A stretch of 64,000 nt of DNA from Arthrobacter sp. H35-D1. GTDB taxonomy: Bacteria > Actinomycetota > Actinomycetes > Actinomycetales > Micrococcaceae. A program made the translations under genes and the position numbers. Numbering within the stretch: position 1 is the stretch's first letter; every line of letters begins with the position of its first letter. A model generated the notes under the pieces. The model had not been told where the DNA came from. It saw only the letters and a program-made list of their open reading frames with translations, and made no database searches. The stretch lies in contig NZ_JASISP010000005.1 in the NCBI RefSeq assembly GCF_030063185.1, positions 124,001 through 188,000 of the forward strand, read 5' to 3'. Positions 41,399 to 49,213 of the stretch are shown one piece after another.

Positions 41399-42682
41399 TT
41401 GAAGAAGCTGAAATCGATCCCCCTGCTCGGGTGGATAGTCCTGGCCATCATCCTAGGCATTTTGACCGGCCCCATCATGCCCGTGTGGCTTGGCAGCGTG
41501 TTTCTGACCTACAACTCAATCTTCTCGGGATTCCTCGGCTTTGTTGTGCCGCTGATCATCCTGGGGCTCATCATGCCTGCAGTTGCCGAGCTCGGCAAGG
41601 GTGCCGGAAAGTGGCTCGGGATCACTGCCGTGATCTCATACGGCTCCACGATCCTCGCGGGATTGCTCGCCTACTTCGTGAGCCGGTGGCTGTTCACCCC
41701 GGCACTGGAGGGCGGTGGCCTCGAAGCGTTCGGAGCAGAATCCGGATCGGGCTTTACCCCCTTCCTGACGATCGTGAGCAGCGCAGGCGAATCCGCGACT
41801 GAGATCGTGCTTCCTCCGGTGATTGGTGTCATGAGTGCGCTTGTGCTCGCCTTCGTGATCGGCATCGGCCTCACCACGTTCCACAGCAAGGTGCTCTTTC
41901 GCGGTGCCATCGAGTTCCGTACAATCATCGAGGCCGTGATCCGACGCATCATCGTGCCCGCACTGCCGCTGTTCATCTTCGGTATCTTCATGGACCTCTC
42001 GGCGAGCGGTTCGGCCATGTTGGTCGTCACGAAGTTCTTGCTCGTTGCCGTCGTGTCCCTCGCGTTGACGTTTGTGGTGCTGCTGGCACAATACTCGGTG
42101 GCGGGAACTATGACGGGGCTGAACCCGCTGAAGGCACTGTGGAACATGCGCGATGCGTACTTCACGGCACTCGGCACCTCATCCTCGGCCGCAACAATTC
42201 CGGTAACACTTGCCTCAACAAAGAAAAACCGCGTCTCCGGCTCGGTGGCAGGATTCGTCGTGCCGTTGTGTGCCACGATCCACTTGTCCGGCTCGATGGT
42301 GAAGATCGTTTGCTTCTCGATCGCTGTGCTGCTGCTGACCGGCGGTGACGTTGCGTTCGCGGCGTACCTGCCGTTCATCCTGATGCTGGGCATCATGATG
42401 ATCGCCGCCCCGGGCGTTCCCGGCGGCGCAATCGCCGCCGCCGCGGGCCTGCTCGCGCAGATGCTCGGGTTCGGCGAAGTCGAAGTTGGCCTCATGTTTG
42501 CAGCGTACATTGCACTCGACAGCTTCGGCACGGCCGCGAACGTGACAGGCGATGGTGCCATCGCCCTGATCATGAACAAGCTCACGCGCGGACACCTCGG
42601 CACGCAGGCACAGGATCCGGACGACGAAAATATGGAAGCGGCAACGGGCAGCGAGACCGAATCGCACGCTCTGGCCCAATAG
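41399..42682 (+). CDS. Dicarboxylate/amino acid:cation symporter (DAACS family)
   Basis: Sodium- or proton-coupled importer of 427 residues with the GltP/SstT/DctA fold. Hairpin 1 has TALGTSSSAATIPVTL (serine-rich motif), and the late core has SGSMVKIVCFSIAVLLL, then MIAAPGVPGGAIAAAAGLL and FGTAANVTGDGAIALIMNK with the substrate Asp and Asn. TTG at 41399 has GAGG seven bases upstream; TACTAT at 41318-41323 is a possible -10 box. It is flanked on both sides by related repeats and its codon choice differs from neighbours (more CTC, ACG and GTG/GTC runs), hinting at transfer. Possible substrates are glutamate, succinate or serine. Confidence 0.9.
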   Translation: MKKLKSIPLLGWIVLAIILGILTGPIMPVWLGSVFLTYNSIFSGFLGFVVPLIILGLIMPAVAELGKGAGKWLGITAVISYGSTILAGLLAYFVSRWLFTPALEGGGLEAFGAESGSGFTPFLTIVSSAGESATEIVLPPVIGVMSALVLAFVIGIGLTTFHSKVLFRGAIEFRTIIEAVIRRIIVPALPLFIFGIFMDLSASGSAMLVVTKFLLVAVVSLALTFVVLLAQYSVAGTMTGLNPLKALWNMRDAYFTALGTSSSAATIPVTLASTKKNRVSGSVAGFVVPLCATIHLSGSMVKIVCFSIAVLLLTGGDVAFAAYLPFILMLGIMMIAAPGVPGGAIAAAAGLLAQMLGFGEVEVGLMFAAYIALDSFGTAANVTGDGAIALIMNKLTRGHLGTQAQDPDDENMEAATGSETESHALAQ

Positions 42683-42823: not shown

Positions 42824-44722
42824 CTAGCTGGGGCGCAGGATTGGACGCAGGTACTCGATGACGGAGCTGTCCTCGATGGTGGAGGGCACCTTGCAATCGT
42901 CGCCGTCGGCAATTTGGCGCATGGTCTTGCGCAGAATCTTCCCCGAGCGGGTCTTCGGCAGTGCCTCGACCACCACGGCGCTCTTGAAGTCGGCCACGGG
43001 CCCGATCTCCTTCCGCACCAGGGCCACCAATTCACGCTCCAAGTCCGCGGCTTGGATCGACACCCCGGCCTTGAGCACCACAAAACCCACGGCCTTTTGG
43101 CCCTTGAGCGCATCGGCAACACCAATGACGGCGCATTCAGCCACGGCCGGGTGGGTGCCCAGCACCTGCTCCATGCTTCCGGTGGAGAGCCGGTGCCCGG
43201 CGACGTTGATGATGTCATCGGTGCGGCCCATGACAAACACGTAGCCGTCCTGGTCGCGGTAGCCGGAATCCCCCGTCGTGTAGTAACCCTCAAACACGGA
43301 CAAGTATGAATCCACATAGCGCTGGTCGTTGTTCCACAAGGTGGTCAGCGTGCCAGGGGGCAGCGGCAGGGCAAGCACAATGTTGCCCTCCTCCCCCGGC
43401 GCCACCTCGGCCCCGACGGCATCCACAACGCGCAGGTCGTAGCCGGGCAGCGGCAGCGACGGCGACCCTGCCTTGATCGGCAGCCCGCCCATCCCCTGCG
43501 GATTGCCCACAATTCCCCAGCCTGTCTCGGTCTGCCACCAGTGGTCCACCACGGGCACGCCGAGCACCTTCGAGGCCCAGTGGAACGTGTCGGTGTCCAG
43601 CCGCTCACCGGCAGTGAACAGCGTTTGGAGGGTGCCGACGTCGTACTTCTTCAGCAGCTCCGCCTCCGGATCCATCTTCCTAATGGCGCGCAGAGCCGTC
43701 GGAGCGGTGAACAGCGCCTTGACCCCATGCTGGGCAATGACACGCCAAAATGCGCCGGCGTCGGGCGTGCCCACCGGCTTGCCCTCGTACATCAGCGTGG
43801 TGGCGCCGGCCAGCAGCGGCCCGTAAACAATGTACGAGTGCCCCACCACCCAGCCCACGTCCGACGCCGTCCACCACACGTCGCCGGCCTGGACGTTGTA
43901 CAGCTTGTCCATGGTCCACAGAAGTGCGACGGCGTGTCCCCCGTTGTCGCGCACCACCCCCTTGGGCACGCCGGTGGTGCCGGAGGTGTAGAGCACGTAG
44001 AGCGGGTCGGTTGACTTCACCATGACGGGGTCGGCGGGCTGCGCGCCGGCCATGGCCGCGTCCCAGTCCACCGCCGTGAGCTCATGTTCGACGGCGCTCT
44101 CGGCGAAGCCTTCCCGCCGCTTGATGATGACGGGCAGCTCCGGGACGCCTGCCTTGGCAAGTGCCTCATGGACGGTGGGCAGGTAGTTGATCTGCTTGTT
44201 GGGTTCGAGCCCGCCCGAGGTCGTGACAATGGCCTTGGGTGCGGCGTCGAGGATCCTGACGGACAACTCGCTGGCCGCAAACCCGCCAAACACCACCGAG
44301 TGGATGGCACCCAGGCGGGCGGTGGCGAGCATGGCGATGGCGGCCTCGGGGATCATGGGCAGGTAGATGACGACGCGGTCGCCCCTGCCCACGCCTAGAC
44401 TGCGCAGCACACCGGCGAATGTGGCCACTGCGGCGGTGAGTTCGCTGTACGTGTACGTGGTGACTTCCCCGCGCATGGCCGAGTCGTGGATCAGCGCCGT
44501 CTGGTCCCCCCTCCCGGCGGCAACATGCCTGTCAAGGGCGTTGTGGCAGGTGTTCATTTCACCGTCCGGGAACCAGCGGCTCAACGGCGCATCTTCGTCG
44601 CTGTGGGCGCGGCTTGGCTTGGCCGCCCAGTCAACCGCGTTGGCGGCCTCAAGCCAGAACCCTTCCGGATCACTGAGGCTGCGTTGGTATTCCTCGCTGA
44701 AACTGCTGTTGTGCAGGGGCAT
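42824..44722 (-). CDS. prpE: Propionate-CoA ligase
   Basis: AMP-forming acyl-CoA synthetase of 632 residues that activates propionate. Motifs: YTSGTTGVPKGVV (ATP loop), WWQTETGWGI, YYTTGDSGYRDQDGYVFVMG, and KTRSGKILRKTMR, whose second Lys is the acetylation-regulated catalytic residue. Acetyl-CoA synthetase is the close alternative; divergence from a gntR-prpDBC operon favours propionate. GGAG lies upstream of the ATG. The promoter and a TGTATACA palindrome are in the 200-bp intergenic region. Confidence 0.92.
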   Translation of the reverse strand: MPLHNSSFSEEYQRSLSDPEGFWLEAANAVDWAAKPSRAHSDEDAPLSRWFPDGEMNTCHNALDRHVAAGRGDQTALIHDSAMRGEVTTYTYSELTAAVATFAGVLRSLGVGRGDRVVIYLPMIPEAAIAMLATARLGAIHSVVFGGFAASELSVRILDAAPKAIVTTSGGLEPNKQINYLPTVHEALAKAGVPELPVIIKRREGFAESAVEHELTAVDWDAAMAGAQPADPVMVKSTDPLYVLYTSGTTGVPKGVVRDNGGHAVALLWTMDKLYNVQAGDVWWTASDVGWVVGHSYIVYGPLLAGATTLMYEGKPVGTPDAGAFWRVIAQHGVKALFTAPTALRAIRKMDPEAELLKKYDVGTLQTLFTAGERLDTDTFHWASKVLGVPVVDHWWQTETGWGIVGNPQGMGGLPIKAGSPSLPLPGYDLRVVDAVGAEVAPGEEGNIVLALPLPPGTLTTLWNNDQRYVDSYLSVFEGYYTTGDSGYRDQDGYVFVMGRTDDIINVAGHRLSTGSMEQVLGTHPAVAECAVIGVADALKGQKAVGFVVLKAGVSIQAADLERELVALVRKEIGPVADFKSAVVVEALPKTRSGKILRKTMRQIADGDDCKVPSTIEDSSVIEYLRPILRPS

Positions 44723-44757: not shown

Positions 44758-44803
44758 ATACTAGCCGTGACTACCGAACCTCAACAAGGGTCCATGTATA
44801 CAT
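44758..44803 (-). promoter_or_regulatory. prpE promoter and upstream palindrome
   Basis: On the minus strand TTGTTG (44782-44787) and TAGTAT (44758-44763) are 18 bp apart, 36 bases before the prpE start. Seven bases upstream of the -35 lies the perfect palindrome ATGTATACAT (44794-44803), placed where an activator, or one half of a looping repressor pair, would bind. Confidence 0.6.
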
Positions 44804-44835
44804 AAATCAAATATCTATCCATATTTCTCGAATTA

Positions 44836-44864
44836 TTGCCCAATGCCTGCGTTCTTTGTATACA
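44836..44864 (+). promoter_or_regulatory. gntR-prpDBC promoter with operator on the -10 box
   Basis: TTGCCC (44836-44841) and TATACA (44859-44864) are separated by exactly 17 bp. The -10 box is part of the palindrome TGTATACA (44857-44864), the same core as near prpE. A GntR-type repressor bound here would block RNA polymerase. The two palindrome centres are 62 bp apart, close to six helical turns. Confidence 0.65.
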
Positions 44865-44923
44865 CTGATGGCACGTTGCATTCCACGCATCGCAACGGGG
44901 CACCAGAGCAGCGGAAAGGATCC

Positions 44924-45604
44924 ATGCGAGCCAGCGAACGCGCCTATGCGGCCTTGCGCAGCGACATTATCGAATGGCGACTGACTCCCGGAACCGTGCT
45001 GGGCGAGGTGGAACTCTCCGAGCGACTGGGAGTTTCGCGGACACCCATTCGTGAGGCGTTGGCCAAGCTTAGCGCCGAAGGCCTGGCACAACCACAAAGC
45101 GGGCGCGGGGTGGTGGTCAGCGAAATTTCCCTTGACCACCTGGACGAGCTTTTCGAACTGCGCTCCGCGTTGGAATGCAGGGCCGCCGAACTGGCCGCCC
45201 AGCGTGGGGACCCCGCCGTCTTCAGGGTCCTGCACGAACAACTGGCCAACGCCGGGGAGCTGCTCACCAGCGAAGACCCCACCCGCCACGACTACTACCA
45301 ACTGGTGGCCGAGCTGGATACGGCCGTTGACGCCGCCGTCGGAAATCACTACCTGAACCAAGCGCTGAAGAACCTGCGCGTCCATCTTGTCCGGGTGCGC
45401 CGGCTGTCCCAGGACAATCCCGCCCGACTGCGCGACGCGGCCCGCGAACATGCGGCAATTGCGCTGGCCATCGCCAACGGAAACTCCGCCGTGGCCAGCG
45501 CCGCGACCACCGTCCACCTGGACTACAGCCTGCGCCACCTGCTGGGCACCGCTGCCAAAGAACTTCCACAACTCCGTTTTCCCCCTGCGAAAGGATCATC
45601 ATGA
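44924..45604 (+). CDS. GntR-family regulator (FCD subfamily) of the prp locus
   Basis: Regulator of 226 residues with an N-terminal winged helix ([20 protein letters not shown], then [20 protein letters not shown]) and an all-helical FCD ligand domain ([20 protein letters not shown]) that binds organic acids, often with a metal held by Asp/His residues. ATG at 44924 has AAAGGA upstream; 27 earlier codons overlap the promoter and are rejected. Its stop overlaps the prpD start (ATGA). It is likely autoregulated and a switch for propionate catabolism, a different regulator type from the PrpR of mycobacteria. Confidence 0.92.
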
Positions 45605-47121
45605 CCATCGACCACACAGTTCGCGTCTACAAGAGCGAGGAAAACCTGGCCCACGAGGACCAGCTCGCCTACAAGATCGCCAAGGTTGCCACCGACCCCG
45701 TCGCCGTCAACGCCGAGGCGACGGACATGATCATCAACCGCGTCATCGACAACGCCTCGGTGGCCGTCGCCTCCCTGAACCGCGGCCCCATCGTGGCAGC
45801 TCGTGCCCAGGCCCTGGCACACGCGCCCTCCACCGGCGGCAGCGGCGCCAACGTCTTTGGCATCACGGAAAAGGTTTCCCCCGAGTGGGCGGCCTGGGCC
45901 AATGGCGTGGCCGTGCGCGAGCTGGACTACCATGACACTTTCCTCTCCGCCGAGTACTCCCACCCGGGCGACAACATCCCGCCGATCCTCGCCGTTGCCC
46001 AGCACACCGGGGCCTCCGGCGCGGACCTTTTGCGCGGCATTGCCACCGGCTACGAAATCCAGGTGGACCTGGTGAAGTCCATCTGCCTGCACGAGCACAA
46101 GATTGACCATGTGGCCCACCTCGGCCCGTCCGCCGCCGCCGGCATCGGCACCCTGCTGGGCCTTGACGTGGAGACCATCTTCCAGGCCGTCGGCCAGGGC
46201 CTGCACACCACCACCGCCACCCGCCAGTCGCGCAAGGGCGAGATTTCCACCTGGAAGGCGCACGCCCCCGCGTTCGCCGGCAAGATGGCCGTCGAGGCAG
46301 CGGACAGGGCCATGCGAGGACAGACGTCCCCCGTGCCGATCTACGAAGGCGAAGACGGAGTCATCGCCTGGATGCTTGACGGTCCCGACGCCAAATACAC
46401 CGTGCCGCTGCCTGCCGAGGGAGAAGCCAAGCGCGCCATCCTCGACACCTACACCAAGGAACACTCGGCCGAATACCAGGCGCAGGCGTGGATCGATTTG
46501 GCCCGCAAACTGCACAAGGAGCACCCGGAAGCCACCGATCCGGCGAACGTGGAGAGCGTGCTGATCAAGTCCAGCCACCACACCCACTACGTGATCGGCT
46601 CCGGCGCCAACGACCCGCAGAAGTACGATCCCACCGCCTCGCGCGAGACCCTTGACCACTCCATCCCGTACATCTTCACGGTGGCATTGCAGGACGGTTC
46701 CTGGCACCACGTGGACTCGTACTCCCCCGAGCGTGCCGGCCGCCCCGACACGGTGGAGCTGTGGCACAAGGTCACCACGGCGGAGGATGCCGAATGGACG
46801 CGCCGCTACCACTCCCTCGACATTGCCGAGAAGGCTTTTGGCGGCACCGTGGTCATCACGCTCAAGGATGGCACCGTCATCGAGGAATCGATCGCCCTCG
46901 CCGATGCGCACCCGCTCGGTGCCCGGCCCTTCGCCCGCGCCCAGTACATCAACAAGTTCCGCACCTTGGCTGCCGGGCTCGTGGAGGAAGCAGAGATCAA
47001 CCGCTTCCTCGCGGCAGCGGAGAACCTGCCCAACCTGGCCGCCGGGGAACTGGACCAGTTGAACATTCAGGCGGCGCCCGGCGTCGTCGATCTGGCGGCA
47101 GCACCCAAGGGACTGTTCTAG
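45601..47121 (+). CDS. prpD: 2-methylcitrate dehydratase (MmgE/PrpD family)
   Basis: Enzyme of the methylcitrate cycle, 506 residues, that dehydrates 2-methylcitrate. The family N-terminal helical domain has [20 protein letters not shown] and [20 protein letters not shown], with the conserved Asp/His around the active site; [16 protein letters not shown] and [20 protein letters not shown] follow. The ATG overlaps the gntR stop by four bases, and prpB begins one base after its stop, so the four genes form one operon. Confidence 0.95.
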
Positions 47122-47122
47122 G

Positions 47123-48052
47123 ATGCTGTACTCCAAGAAAACCCCCGAGCAAAAGCGCTTGGACCTGCGCGGGATGCTGGTTCCCGGGGCTGCCGTGCAG
47201 TTCCCGGGTGCCTTCAACCCGCTCTCGGCGCGCCTCATCGAGGAAAAGAAGTTCGACGGCGTGTACATCTCCGGTGCCGTGCTCGCCAACGAACTGGGCC
47301 TGCCGGACATAGGCATGACCACGCTGACCGAGGTGGCCGCCCGTGGCGCACAGATTGCGCGCATGACGGATCTACCGTGCCTGATCGACGCCGACACCGG
47401 GTTTGGGGAGCCAATGAACGTGGCCCGCACCATCGCCGAGCTGGAGAATGCAGGGCTGGCCGGCTGCCACATCGAAGACCAGTTCAACCCCAAGCGCTGC
47501 GGCCACCTGGACGGCAAGAACATGGTGGACCTCGACACGGCAGTCAAGCGCGTTGCCGCTGCCGCCGATGCCCGGCGGGATGCGAACTTCCTCATCATGG
47601 CCCGCACCGACATCCGAGCGGTGGAGGGTCTGGATGCCGCGATAGAGCGGGCGAAGGCCCTGGTCGACGCCGGGGCAGACGCCATCTTCCCGGAAGCCAT
47701 GAAGAACGTGGCCGAGTTTGAGGCCGTGTGCAAGGCCGTCGATGTCCCGGTGTTGGCAAATATGACGGAGTTTGGCAAAAGTGAGCTGTTCACCCGCGAC
47801 GAGCTCGCTGCGGCGGGGGTCGCCATGGTGATTTACCCCGTCACCTTGCTGCGCAGCGCCATGGGTGCCGCCGAGCGGGTTCTTGAAGCGATCAACGCCC
47901 ACGGCACCCAGAAAGCTGCCGTGCCGGACATGCTCACACGTGCGCGCCTCTACGATCTGGTTGACTATGAGGCGTACAACCAATTTGATACAGGTATCTT
48001 CAATTTTCAGGTCCCCAGCTTGGACATTGACAACAACAGCGCCAACCTCTAA
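47123..48052 (+). CDS. prpB: Methylisocitrate lyase
   Basis: Isocitrate-lyase superfamily enzyme of 309 residues that splits 2-methylisocitrate into pyruvate and succinate. The signature KRCGHLDGKNMV holds the catalytic Cys, DADTGFGEPMNVARTIAELE the metal-binding Asp, and IMARTDIRAVEGLDAAIERA is also family-typical. Length is normal. It begins one base after the prpD stop, with AAGGG upstream. Confidence 0.96.
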   Translation: MLYSKKTPEQKRLDLRGMLVPGAAVQFPGAFNPLSARLIEEKKFDGVYISGAVLANELGLPDIGMTTLTEVAARGAQIARMTDLPCLIDADTGFGEPMNVARTIAELENAGLAGCHIEDQFNPKRCGHLDGKNMVDLDTAVKRVAAAADARRDANFLIMARTDIRAVEGLDAAIERAKALVDAGADAIFPEAMKNVAEFEAVCKAVDVPVLANMTEFGKSELFTRDELAAAGVAMVIYPVTLLRSAMGAAERVLEAINAHGTQKAAVPDMLTRARLYDLVDYEAYNQFDTGIFNFQVPSLDIDNNSANL

Positions 48053-48073
48053 GTCTCCAAAGGAGTGCACACC

Positions 48074-49213
<1,140 letters not shown>

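Follow-up and report, generated by a model that had tools for sequence, protein, structure and literature searches.

The methylcitrate-cycle locus of Arthrobacter sp. H35-D1 raises the question of why two copies of one short palindrome, with centres 62 bp apart, should lie between prpE and a divergent gntR-prpDBC operon. The locus was analyzed within a window of 64,000 nucleotides (the whole stretch of DNA considered here), and an initial annotation of this window had proposed that the two copies are operators of the GntR protein, that they allow looping by a pair of GntR dimers, and that they serve both autorepression of the operon and linked control of prpE. The operon reads, on the forward strand, gntR (44924-45604, 226 aa, an FCD regulator resembling the VanR group according to domain, structure-model and fold evidence), prpD (2-methylcitrate dehydratase, 45601-47121, best match of 860 bits, below the NCBIfam cut-off of 950), prpB (methylisocitrate lyase, 47123-48052, TIGR02317, above cut-off) and prpC (2-methylcitrate synthase/citrate synthase, 48065-49213, NF010636, above cut-off). 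A prpE-like acyl-CoA (propionate-CoA) ligase gene (42824-44722, reverse strand, best matches NF007815 and TIGR02316, both below their cut-offs) diverges from it, with the palindrome pair in between. The start of gntR is most likely at 44924, preceded by GGAAAGGATCC, and the first ATG of its open frame (44843) lies upstream of the gntR -10. A gene of the SDF (dicarboxylate symporter) family (41399-42682), with SstT as only a distant relative, is found tail to tail with prpE. Close relatives of the locus occurred in records titled Arthrobacter and Pseudarthrobacter, and in one titled Sporosarcina beigongshangi (L014, NZ_JADHDY010000001.1), whose gntR-prp locus is Arthrobacter-like (81% identity) and whose assembly is probably mislabelled or contaminated.

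Matches to PF00392 (67 bits) and PF07729 (FCD, 77 bits), both above cut-off, place the regulator in the FCD subfamily, as annotated. PrpR of mycobacteria or corynebacteria is not an FCD GntR but a regulator of another type, and the contrast with it drawn in the annotation holds to this extent. FCD-type control of prp genes is, however, already known in Pseudomonas, as described in PMC9765439. From residue 73 onwards, an AlphaFold2 monomer model (pLDDT 85) shows six long helices plus a four-residue one, in agreement with the six, not seven, C-terminal helices given for the VanR group in PMC7797058. The nearest solved relatives by sequence were 7U5Q, 7XP0, and 6Z74, and the best fold matches of the model were 7U5Q, PmiR (7XP1, third row), and Atu1419 (6ZA3 and others). 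Metal-binding FCD proteins use an Asp and three His as ligands. At the presumed metal site of 227 orthologues, D132 was kept in 98% and H176 and H198 in 100%, and the place of the second His was taken by an Asp (D136) in 93%. Four arginines (R80, R157, R159, and R168) were kept in approximately 100% of the orthologues, a set that would fit a polycarboxylate ligand.

Both candidate operators, to which no strand is assigned and which were recognized from the sequence and from their counterparts in relatives, have the core TGTATACA (site 1, 44795-44802; site 2, 44857-44864). It is only this 8-bp core that they have in common, as the 10-mer of site 1 is ATGTATACAT (44794-44803) and that of site 2 is TTGTATACAC. 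The finer layout also agreed with the annotation, since seven bases separate the core of site 1 from a putative prpE -35 (TTGTTG, 44787-44782, reverse strand, 18 bp from a putative -10, TAGTAT, at 44763-44758, both read in the sequence), and site 2 overlaps the -10 region of gntR-prpDBC (44859-44866, forward strand), in which it contains TATACA (44859-44864). With a T two bases after the site 2 palindrome (44866), kept in 175 of 204 related loci, TACACT (44861-44866) is an equally good -10. The putative -35 of the operon (TTGCCC, 44836-44841, forward strand, read in the sequence, 17 bp from TATACA) lies inside the spacer and was not strongly conserved in the profiles of relatives.

No further copy of TGTATACA was present in the 64-kb window, where 0.06 copies would be expected from shuffled sequences. 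Across the host's own genome (4.46 Mb) the single palindrome was not enriched (8 copies vs. 11 of a reversed control). Exactly one pair with a gap of 44-74 bases was found in each of the 23 genomes of the host genus and none with the reversed pattern, and the own genome held no second pair at this gap. A wider TGTATACA regulon was considered and rejected, the six other copies in the own genome being situated inside long reading frames (five, judged by length alone) or in intergenic DNA (one). This last copy (L006 position 1501, C12:55133) is found beside a TTGACA-like element upstream of a short gene, and could be an extra target or a chance occurrence.

The regulator was then followed through relatives. 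A GntR match was present in 280 of 295 genomes of the host family (E ≤ 1e-30) and, with the host family included, in 98 of 396 genomes and 30 of 109 genera of the order (E ≤ 1e-25). A part of these matches was fetched, comprising 22 loci, then 30 and 30 loci, 108 regions (from a list thinned by hand from the listed matches before their sites were viewed), 24 new loci of the order, and 60 of the 65 listed places outside the family. Of the resulting 268 loci with a GntR match, 11 without an adjacent prpD were left out (ten distant homologues, and L235 at a contig end), and removal of 29 identical duplicates from the remaining 257 gave 228 distinct loci with prpD directly downstream of gntR. At each locus the scored pair was the one with the lowest number of mismatches; the sites had to lie no more than 260 bp from gntR and 20 bp or more from each other, at most one mismatch per site was allowed, and helical phase was ignored. 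Two exact copies of TGTATACA were found at 170 of the 228 loci and a pair with one mismatch (39) or two in all (6) at another 45, so that 215 loci, out of 227 that could be evaluated, have a scored pair upstream of gntR. Pairs were hardly chosen in this procedure, because only 6 loci offered more than two candidate sites.

The 13 loci without a scored pair comprised eight with TGCATGCA pairs (spacing 52, 53 or 64), three with GTATAC-cored pairs (52, 52, and 53), one with a TGTATACA followed by TGCATGCA 52 bp on, and L259, whose contig holds no upstream DNA. Loss of the sites from genomes that keep the gntR-prp locus, which the annotation had named as evidence against itself, was checked and not seen, with the pair retained at 215 of the 227 loci and recognizable at the other 12 under rules loosened after the sequences had been viewed. 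In family f14 both operators are TGCATGCA at 8 of 9 loci (L236, L247, L256, L263, L269, L275, L278, and L282, each with the pair upstream of gntR), spaced by 52-53 bp and once by 64, which is a joint change of both sites. Among the 15 host-family genomes without GntR at E ≤ 1e-30, 12 were also without a PrpD match at E ≤ 1e-60 (two of them from incomplete genomes, 82% and 71%), and in the other three (L298, L299, and L300), which have kept PrpD, GntR gave no match and neither kind of palindrome was found in the roughly 4.5 kb around PrpD; the control of prp must differ there. The regulator and its sites thus tend to be present or absent together. Outside the order, a search of 394 genomes of the class gave three matches (E values from 1.4e-43 to 3.1e-41). 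Two of them were examined and had one site or near-site each and, within about 3.6 kb, nothing that matched prpD or prpE, so these matches were not used.

The 215 scored spacings take 17 values, which fall at 51-53 bp (47 loci), 62-64 (136), 72-76 (22), 83-86 (6), 97 (2), 147 (1), and 157 (1), and not one lies at 54-61, 65-71, 77-82, 87-96 or 98-146 bp. No natural half-turn variant was present among these pairs. Since the loci are related, Rayleigh p-values are descriptive only, and the effect of relatedness was limited by clustering the GntR proteins at 60% identity (36 clusters, 73 combinations of cluster and spacing). The 73 combinations gave R = 0.85 at 10.5 bp, compared with a maximum of 0.369 in 20,000 sets jittered by up to 5 bp, and a tree of the GntR proteins built with FastTree required 35 or more switches between turn classes. 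A fit through the origin gave 10.53 bp per turn. The series is not exactly one of 10.5 bp, with 11.06 bp per added turn up to nine turns, a best single Rayleigh period of 11.65 for all exact pairs, and spacings of 97, 86, and 76 that come late relative to 10.5-bp turns. A value of 11.06 bp is near the helical repeat that has been reported in vivo for lac loops. A helix-phased loop calls for a pair of similar operators a whole number of turns apart, as seen here, and the looping guessed at in the annotation from a single distance of 62 bp (near six turns) thus gained support from the 215 loci, as well as from the A/T wave described below. The pair of GntR dimers that it invoked needs a tetramer or a dimer-dimer contact.

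The whole-turn rule bears on the simplest alternative, that no loop exists and that site 2 represses gntR-prpDBC and site 1 represses prpE as independent operators, in the manner of the divergons with separate double sites described in PMC4494728. Each site does lie at its own putative promoter, and at 90 of 119 divergent loci site 1 has a -35-like TTG right next to it. Yet the spacing between the sites is quantized in turns, and the distances from sites to genes are not: neither site 2 to the gntR start (60 distances, R 0.04) nor site 1 to the prpE start (49 distances, R 0.12) showed phasing. The spacing also barely tracks the length of the intergenic region: over 119 loci the slope was 0.052 (r 0.20), and with the two longest left out it was 0.034 (r 0.26), as opposed to a slope of about 0.5 in the separate class as given in PMC4494728. 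Moreover, a divergent prpE within 600 bp was found at 119 of the 215 scored loci and none was detected at the other 96 (two of which have little upstream sequence). We therefore regard independent operators as quite unlikely.

Because 96 of the 215 pairs have no detected divergent prpE, the pair appears to serve gntR-prpDBC first, and control of prpE, which the annotation had also proposed, gained no support as its main role. In a rough longest-frame scan, the upstream neighbour at the 96 loci was in the same direction as gntR at 56, in the opposite direction at 38, and in sequence too short to judge at 2. Where prpE is divergent, linked control is likely, as CAA (the complement of a -35-like TTG) occurs 6-13 bases before site 1 at 90 of 119 loci with divergent prpE vs. 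8 of 96 without. The commonest spacing was 63 with prpE (57 of 119) and 52 without it (42 of 96). On these sequence comparisons, the common job of the proposed loop would be gntR-prpDBC, with prpE as an added, secondary client.

Class-I activators use a face of the DNA approximately 70 bp upstream of the transcription start. Site 1 lies at about this distance from the start, and it could accordingly be an activator site phased to RNA polymerase, with site 2 responsible for autorepression and A/T tracts that serve the C-terminal domains of the polymerase alpha subunits. In the host family, where site 2 overlaps a -10, phasing of operator to operator and of operator to promoter are indistinguishable. 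The two can be told apart where promoter elements are situated elsewhere. In family f9, 9 of 11 loci (0 of 204 elsewhere) have an extended -10 (TGNTANNTT) at a distance of 23 bases from where site 1 starts, therefore site 2 should sit downstream of the transcription start there; in family f14, 7 of 9 loci (13 of 204 elsewhere) have a TTGAC at 16-17 bases from that point. The spacing in these f9 and f14 loci is still 52-53 bp (mostly 52), the A/T phase in f9 is alike (0.43, coherence 0.96), and spacings of 147 and 157 bp likewise fit whole turns. It is thus the operator pair, and not the distance from the polymerase, to which the phase seems to be tied, and we consider class-I activation very unlikely. 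The position of site 2 relative to the gene also varies: in 55 of 215 loci it starts 16-18 bases before the gntR start, which suggests leaderless transcripts, and in the window a leader of about 50 nt separates the -10/operator from the gntR start (44866-44924).

The spacer itself carries a second regularity. The 54 bp between the sites in the window (44803-44856, no strand assigned), which we take as the DNA of the proposed loop, hold an A/T wave of approximately 10.25 bp, recognized by its power and phase: the power of 1.25 is in the top 0.27% of 9136 54-mers of the window, and the phase is 0.41 and 0.45 turn from the centres of sites 1 and 2. Of 17 periods from 3 to 20 bp that were compared in the spacers of the 215 loci, those of 10-10.5 bp gave the peak, flanked by shoulders at 9.5 and 11, and the mean power at 10.25 bp was 0.74 in spacers vs. 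0.24 after shuffling (z 29), with an excess that stayed at z 21.7 when ten bases were trimmed from each spacer end and at z of about 12 when each 60%-identity cluster was represented by a single locus (n = 34). Averaged over 77 distinct loci with 63-bp spacing, the A/T fraction swings from 11% to 83% along the spacer. Measured from the operator centres, the A/T maxima are at 0.52 turn for site 1 and at 0.475 turn for site 2 (coherence 0.86), with or without a divergent prpE. In the five- and six-turn classes no excess power was found in the DNA flanking either site, and in seven-turn loci the downstream flank also has some (z up to 3.8).

The wave is not uniform among classes. Individual loci give noisy power values (the 95% point of control DNA matched for A/T is exceeded by 59 of 136 six-turn spacers), six-turn loci outside the family have weak power (z 2.4, n = 15), and the TGCATGCA group shows no excess (n = 8, z -0.5 to -1.0), yet keeps its phase coherence (0.87/0.79). 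The phase drifts to 0.61/0.37 turn in loci of 8-9 turns and is off in the two loci of 14-15 turns. If FCD dimers are seated in the major groove at the operator centre, the A/T minor grooves would face the protein side, and the DNA would curve toward the repressor; that half-sites are contacted in the major groove is taken from the description in PMC7797058, and the rest we infer. The spacer thus looks pre-curved toward the repressor, as far as its base composition can tell. If the distance of about 10 nm between operators in the Atu1419 tetramer is applied, the arc of 52-63 bp would bend by approximately 200-226 degrees with a radius near 5 nm.

DNA with phased A/T tracts is a generic substrate for bending proteins. 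A bend or loop produced chiefly by a nucleoid protein (of the HU or IHF type), or by some other factor acting on the A/T-phased spacer, would fit the strong wave, and GntR would then simply repress from two sites. Against this, the phase is tied to both operators up to nine turns, with some drift at 8-9, suggesting bound GntR as the reference, and no fixed third element or motif common to the spacing classes appeared in the spacer profiles beyond the A/T wave itself. We judge this explanation unlikely. A protein other than the FCD GntR could also bind the palindromes. This seems extremely unlikely to us, considering that the pair accompanies gntR-prpD at nearly all evaluable loci (215 of 227, the 12 others under the loosened rules), that it is the only such pair in all 23 genomes of the genus, that the three prpD genomes without GntR are also without a site, and that the 10-mer of site 1 is the target described for the FCD protein Atu1419 in PMC7797058.

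The comparison gives a pair of similar operators spaced by whole turns, an A/T wave in fixed phase with them, and their tie to GntR and its operon; the binding, the tetramer, the repression and the ligand of the following model we infer. We consider it probable that the gntR-prpDBC promoter is spanned by a pre-curved loop, commonly 5-7 turns long, which the FCD GntR closes by bridging the two palindromes. The protein would repress its own operon by occupying the two TGTATACA palindromes simultaneously, either as a tetramer or as a pair of dimers in contact, with the 54 bp between them bent toward it as a tight loop, and RNA polymerase would be shut out with site 2 covering the -10 and the putative -35 enclosed in the loop. 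An intermediate of the methylcitrate cycle (2-methylcitrate or 2-methylisocitrate, by extension from Pseudomonas) would probably enter the FCD pocket and release the loop. Where prpE is divergent and site 1 abuts its -35, the same loop may damp prpE as well. The autorepression proposed in the annotation is thus supported by the architecture seen in relatives, as is the reading of the palindromes as operators of the FCD GntR.

Several elements of this model have precedents. Atu1419 of Agrobacterium fabrum, an FCD protein of the VanR group described as the first tetrameric regulator of the GntR family, binds ATGTATACAT, and for it DNA looping over 190 bp was proposed, with about 10 nm between operators in the tetramer (PMC7797058; PDB 6ZA3 and others). 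According to the same account, it resembles the present system in having a palindrome on the -10 box and two palindromes per promoter region; its 10-mer is identical to site 1, and site 2 shares only the 8-bp core. The fold is likewise FCD with six C-terminal helices as in our model (fold match E of about 1e-8), although the identity to the GntR studied here is only 26-28% in fold alignments. It differs in controlling hydroxycinnamate genes, in sites 190 bp apart, and in its proposed effector, N5,N10-methylenetetrahydrofolate (PMC7797058).

PmiR (PDB 7XP0/7XP1), which we take to be PA0797, is reportedly a sensor of 2-methylisocitrate, going by the title of a paper, and has 27-28% identity to the GntR studied here. 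The Pseudomonas prp genes stand in another order than here. In the description of P. aeruginosa PrpR (PA0797) in PMC9765439, this FCD repressor binds upstream of its own gene in gel shift, a prpR deletion mutant produces PrpB constitutively, and 2-methylcitrate is the likely co-inducer. As in our locus, an FCD GntR is encoded with the prp operon and acts as repressor of a methylcitrate-cycle operon, a role that is predicted here. However, that description gives one 12-nt palindrome (ATTGTCGACAAT) upstream instead of two, and no loop (PMC9765439), and the sites found here are TGTATACA, or TGCATGCA in 8 of 9 f14 loci, and not ATTGTCGACAAT.

For the geometry, the closest counterpart is Rco of pLS20, a tetrameric repressor with two operators 75 bp apart at divergent promoters, in which periodic A/T tracts give a static bend and a half-turn insertion destroys control, as reported in PMC4207663. 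It shares with our proposal the two operators, the divergent promoters, and the short, bent, A/T-phased loop, but is another protein with another motif (CAGTGAAA), belongs to plasmid conjugation, and represents one system without an evolutionary series. In divergons of the FadR subfamily, common double sites keep a near-constant distance that was read as cooperative control, and PrpR is listed there among the groups with 2 nt between GT and AC, the same as here (PMC4494728). Helical phase is not mentioned in its section on double sites, and neither TGTATACA nor Arthrobacter occurs in its main text. The terms GntR, palindrome, and promoter are likewise absent from an Arthrobacter prpD paper (PMC12403558), and in the literature searched, mostly at the level of titles and abstracts, no report on GntR at prp in Arthrobacter or on helical phasing of GntR operators was found. 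FCD-type control of prp, the Atu1419 10-mer, the bent 75-bp loop of Rco, and double-site divergons at constant distance are thus already known from these accounts; as far as we have searched, the whole-turn quantization across families of an order, the operator-locked A/T wave, their independence from promoter position, and the combination of these are new.

With confidence only slightly above even, we extend the model to the order: several of its families would control the methylcitrate cycle through a repression loop that is among the smallest in nature (commonly 5-7 turns), the DNA of which has a selected, nucleosome-like bending code with A/T minor grooves toward the repressor, and which has grown or shrunk in whole-turn steps, 35 or more times on the tree examined, while promoters moved in and around it, so that the loop, and not the position of the promoter, would be the conserved unit. 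The limits that stiffness and helical phase set on repression loops are known mostly from engineered lac-type constructs. Besides these, loop mechanics is known from single systems such as Rco of pLS20. Here, evolution can be regarded as having carried out a spacing experiment over 215 loci, in which every scored pair lies near whole turns and the spacer is patterned, in most classes, to curve in the matching direction. If this reading is true, these loci would be a natural data set for the mechanics of loops of 50-100 bp, the regulator would be a second candidate for a looping FCD protein beside Atu1419, and Arthrobacter and its relatives would possess a switch for propionate catabolism that could be useful for biosensors.
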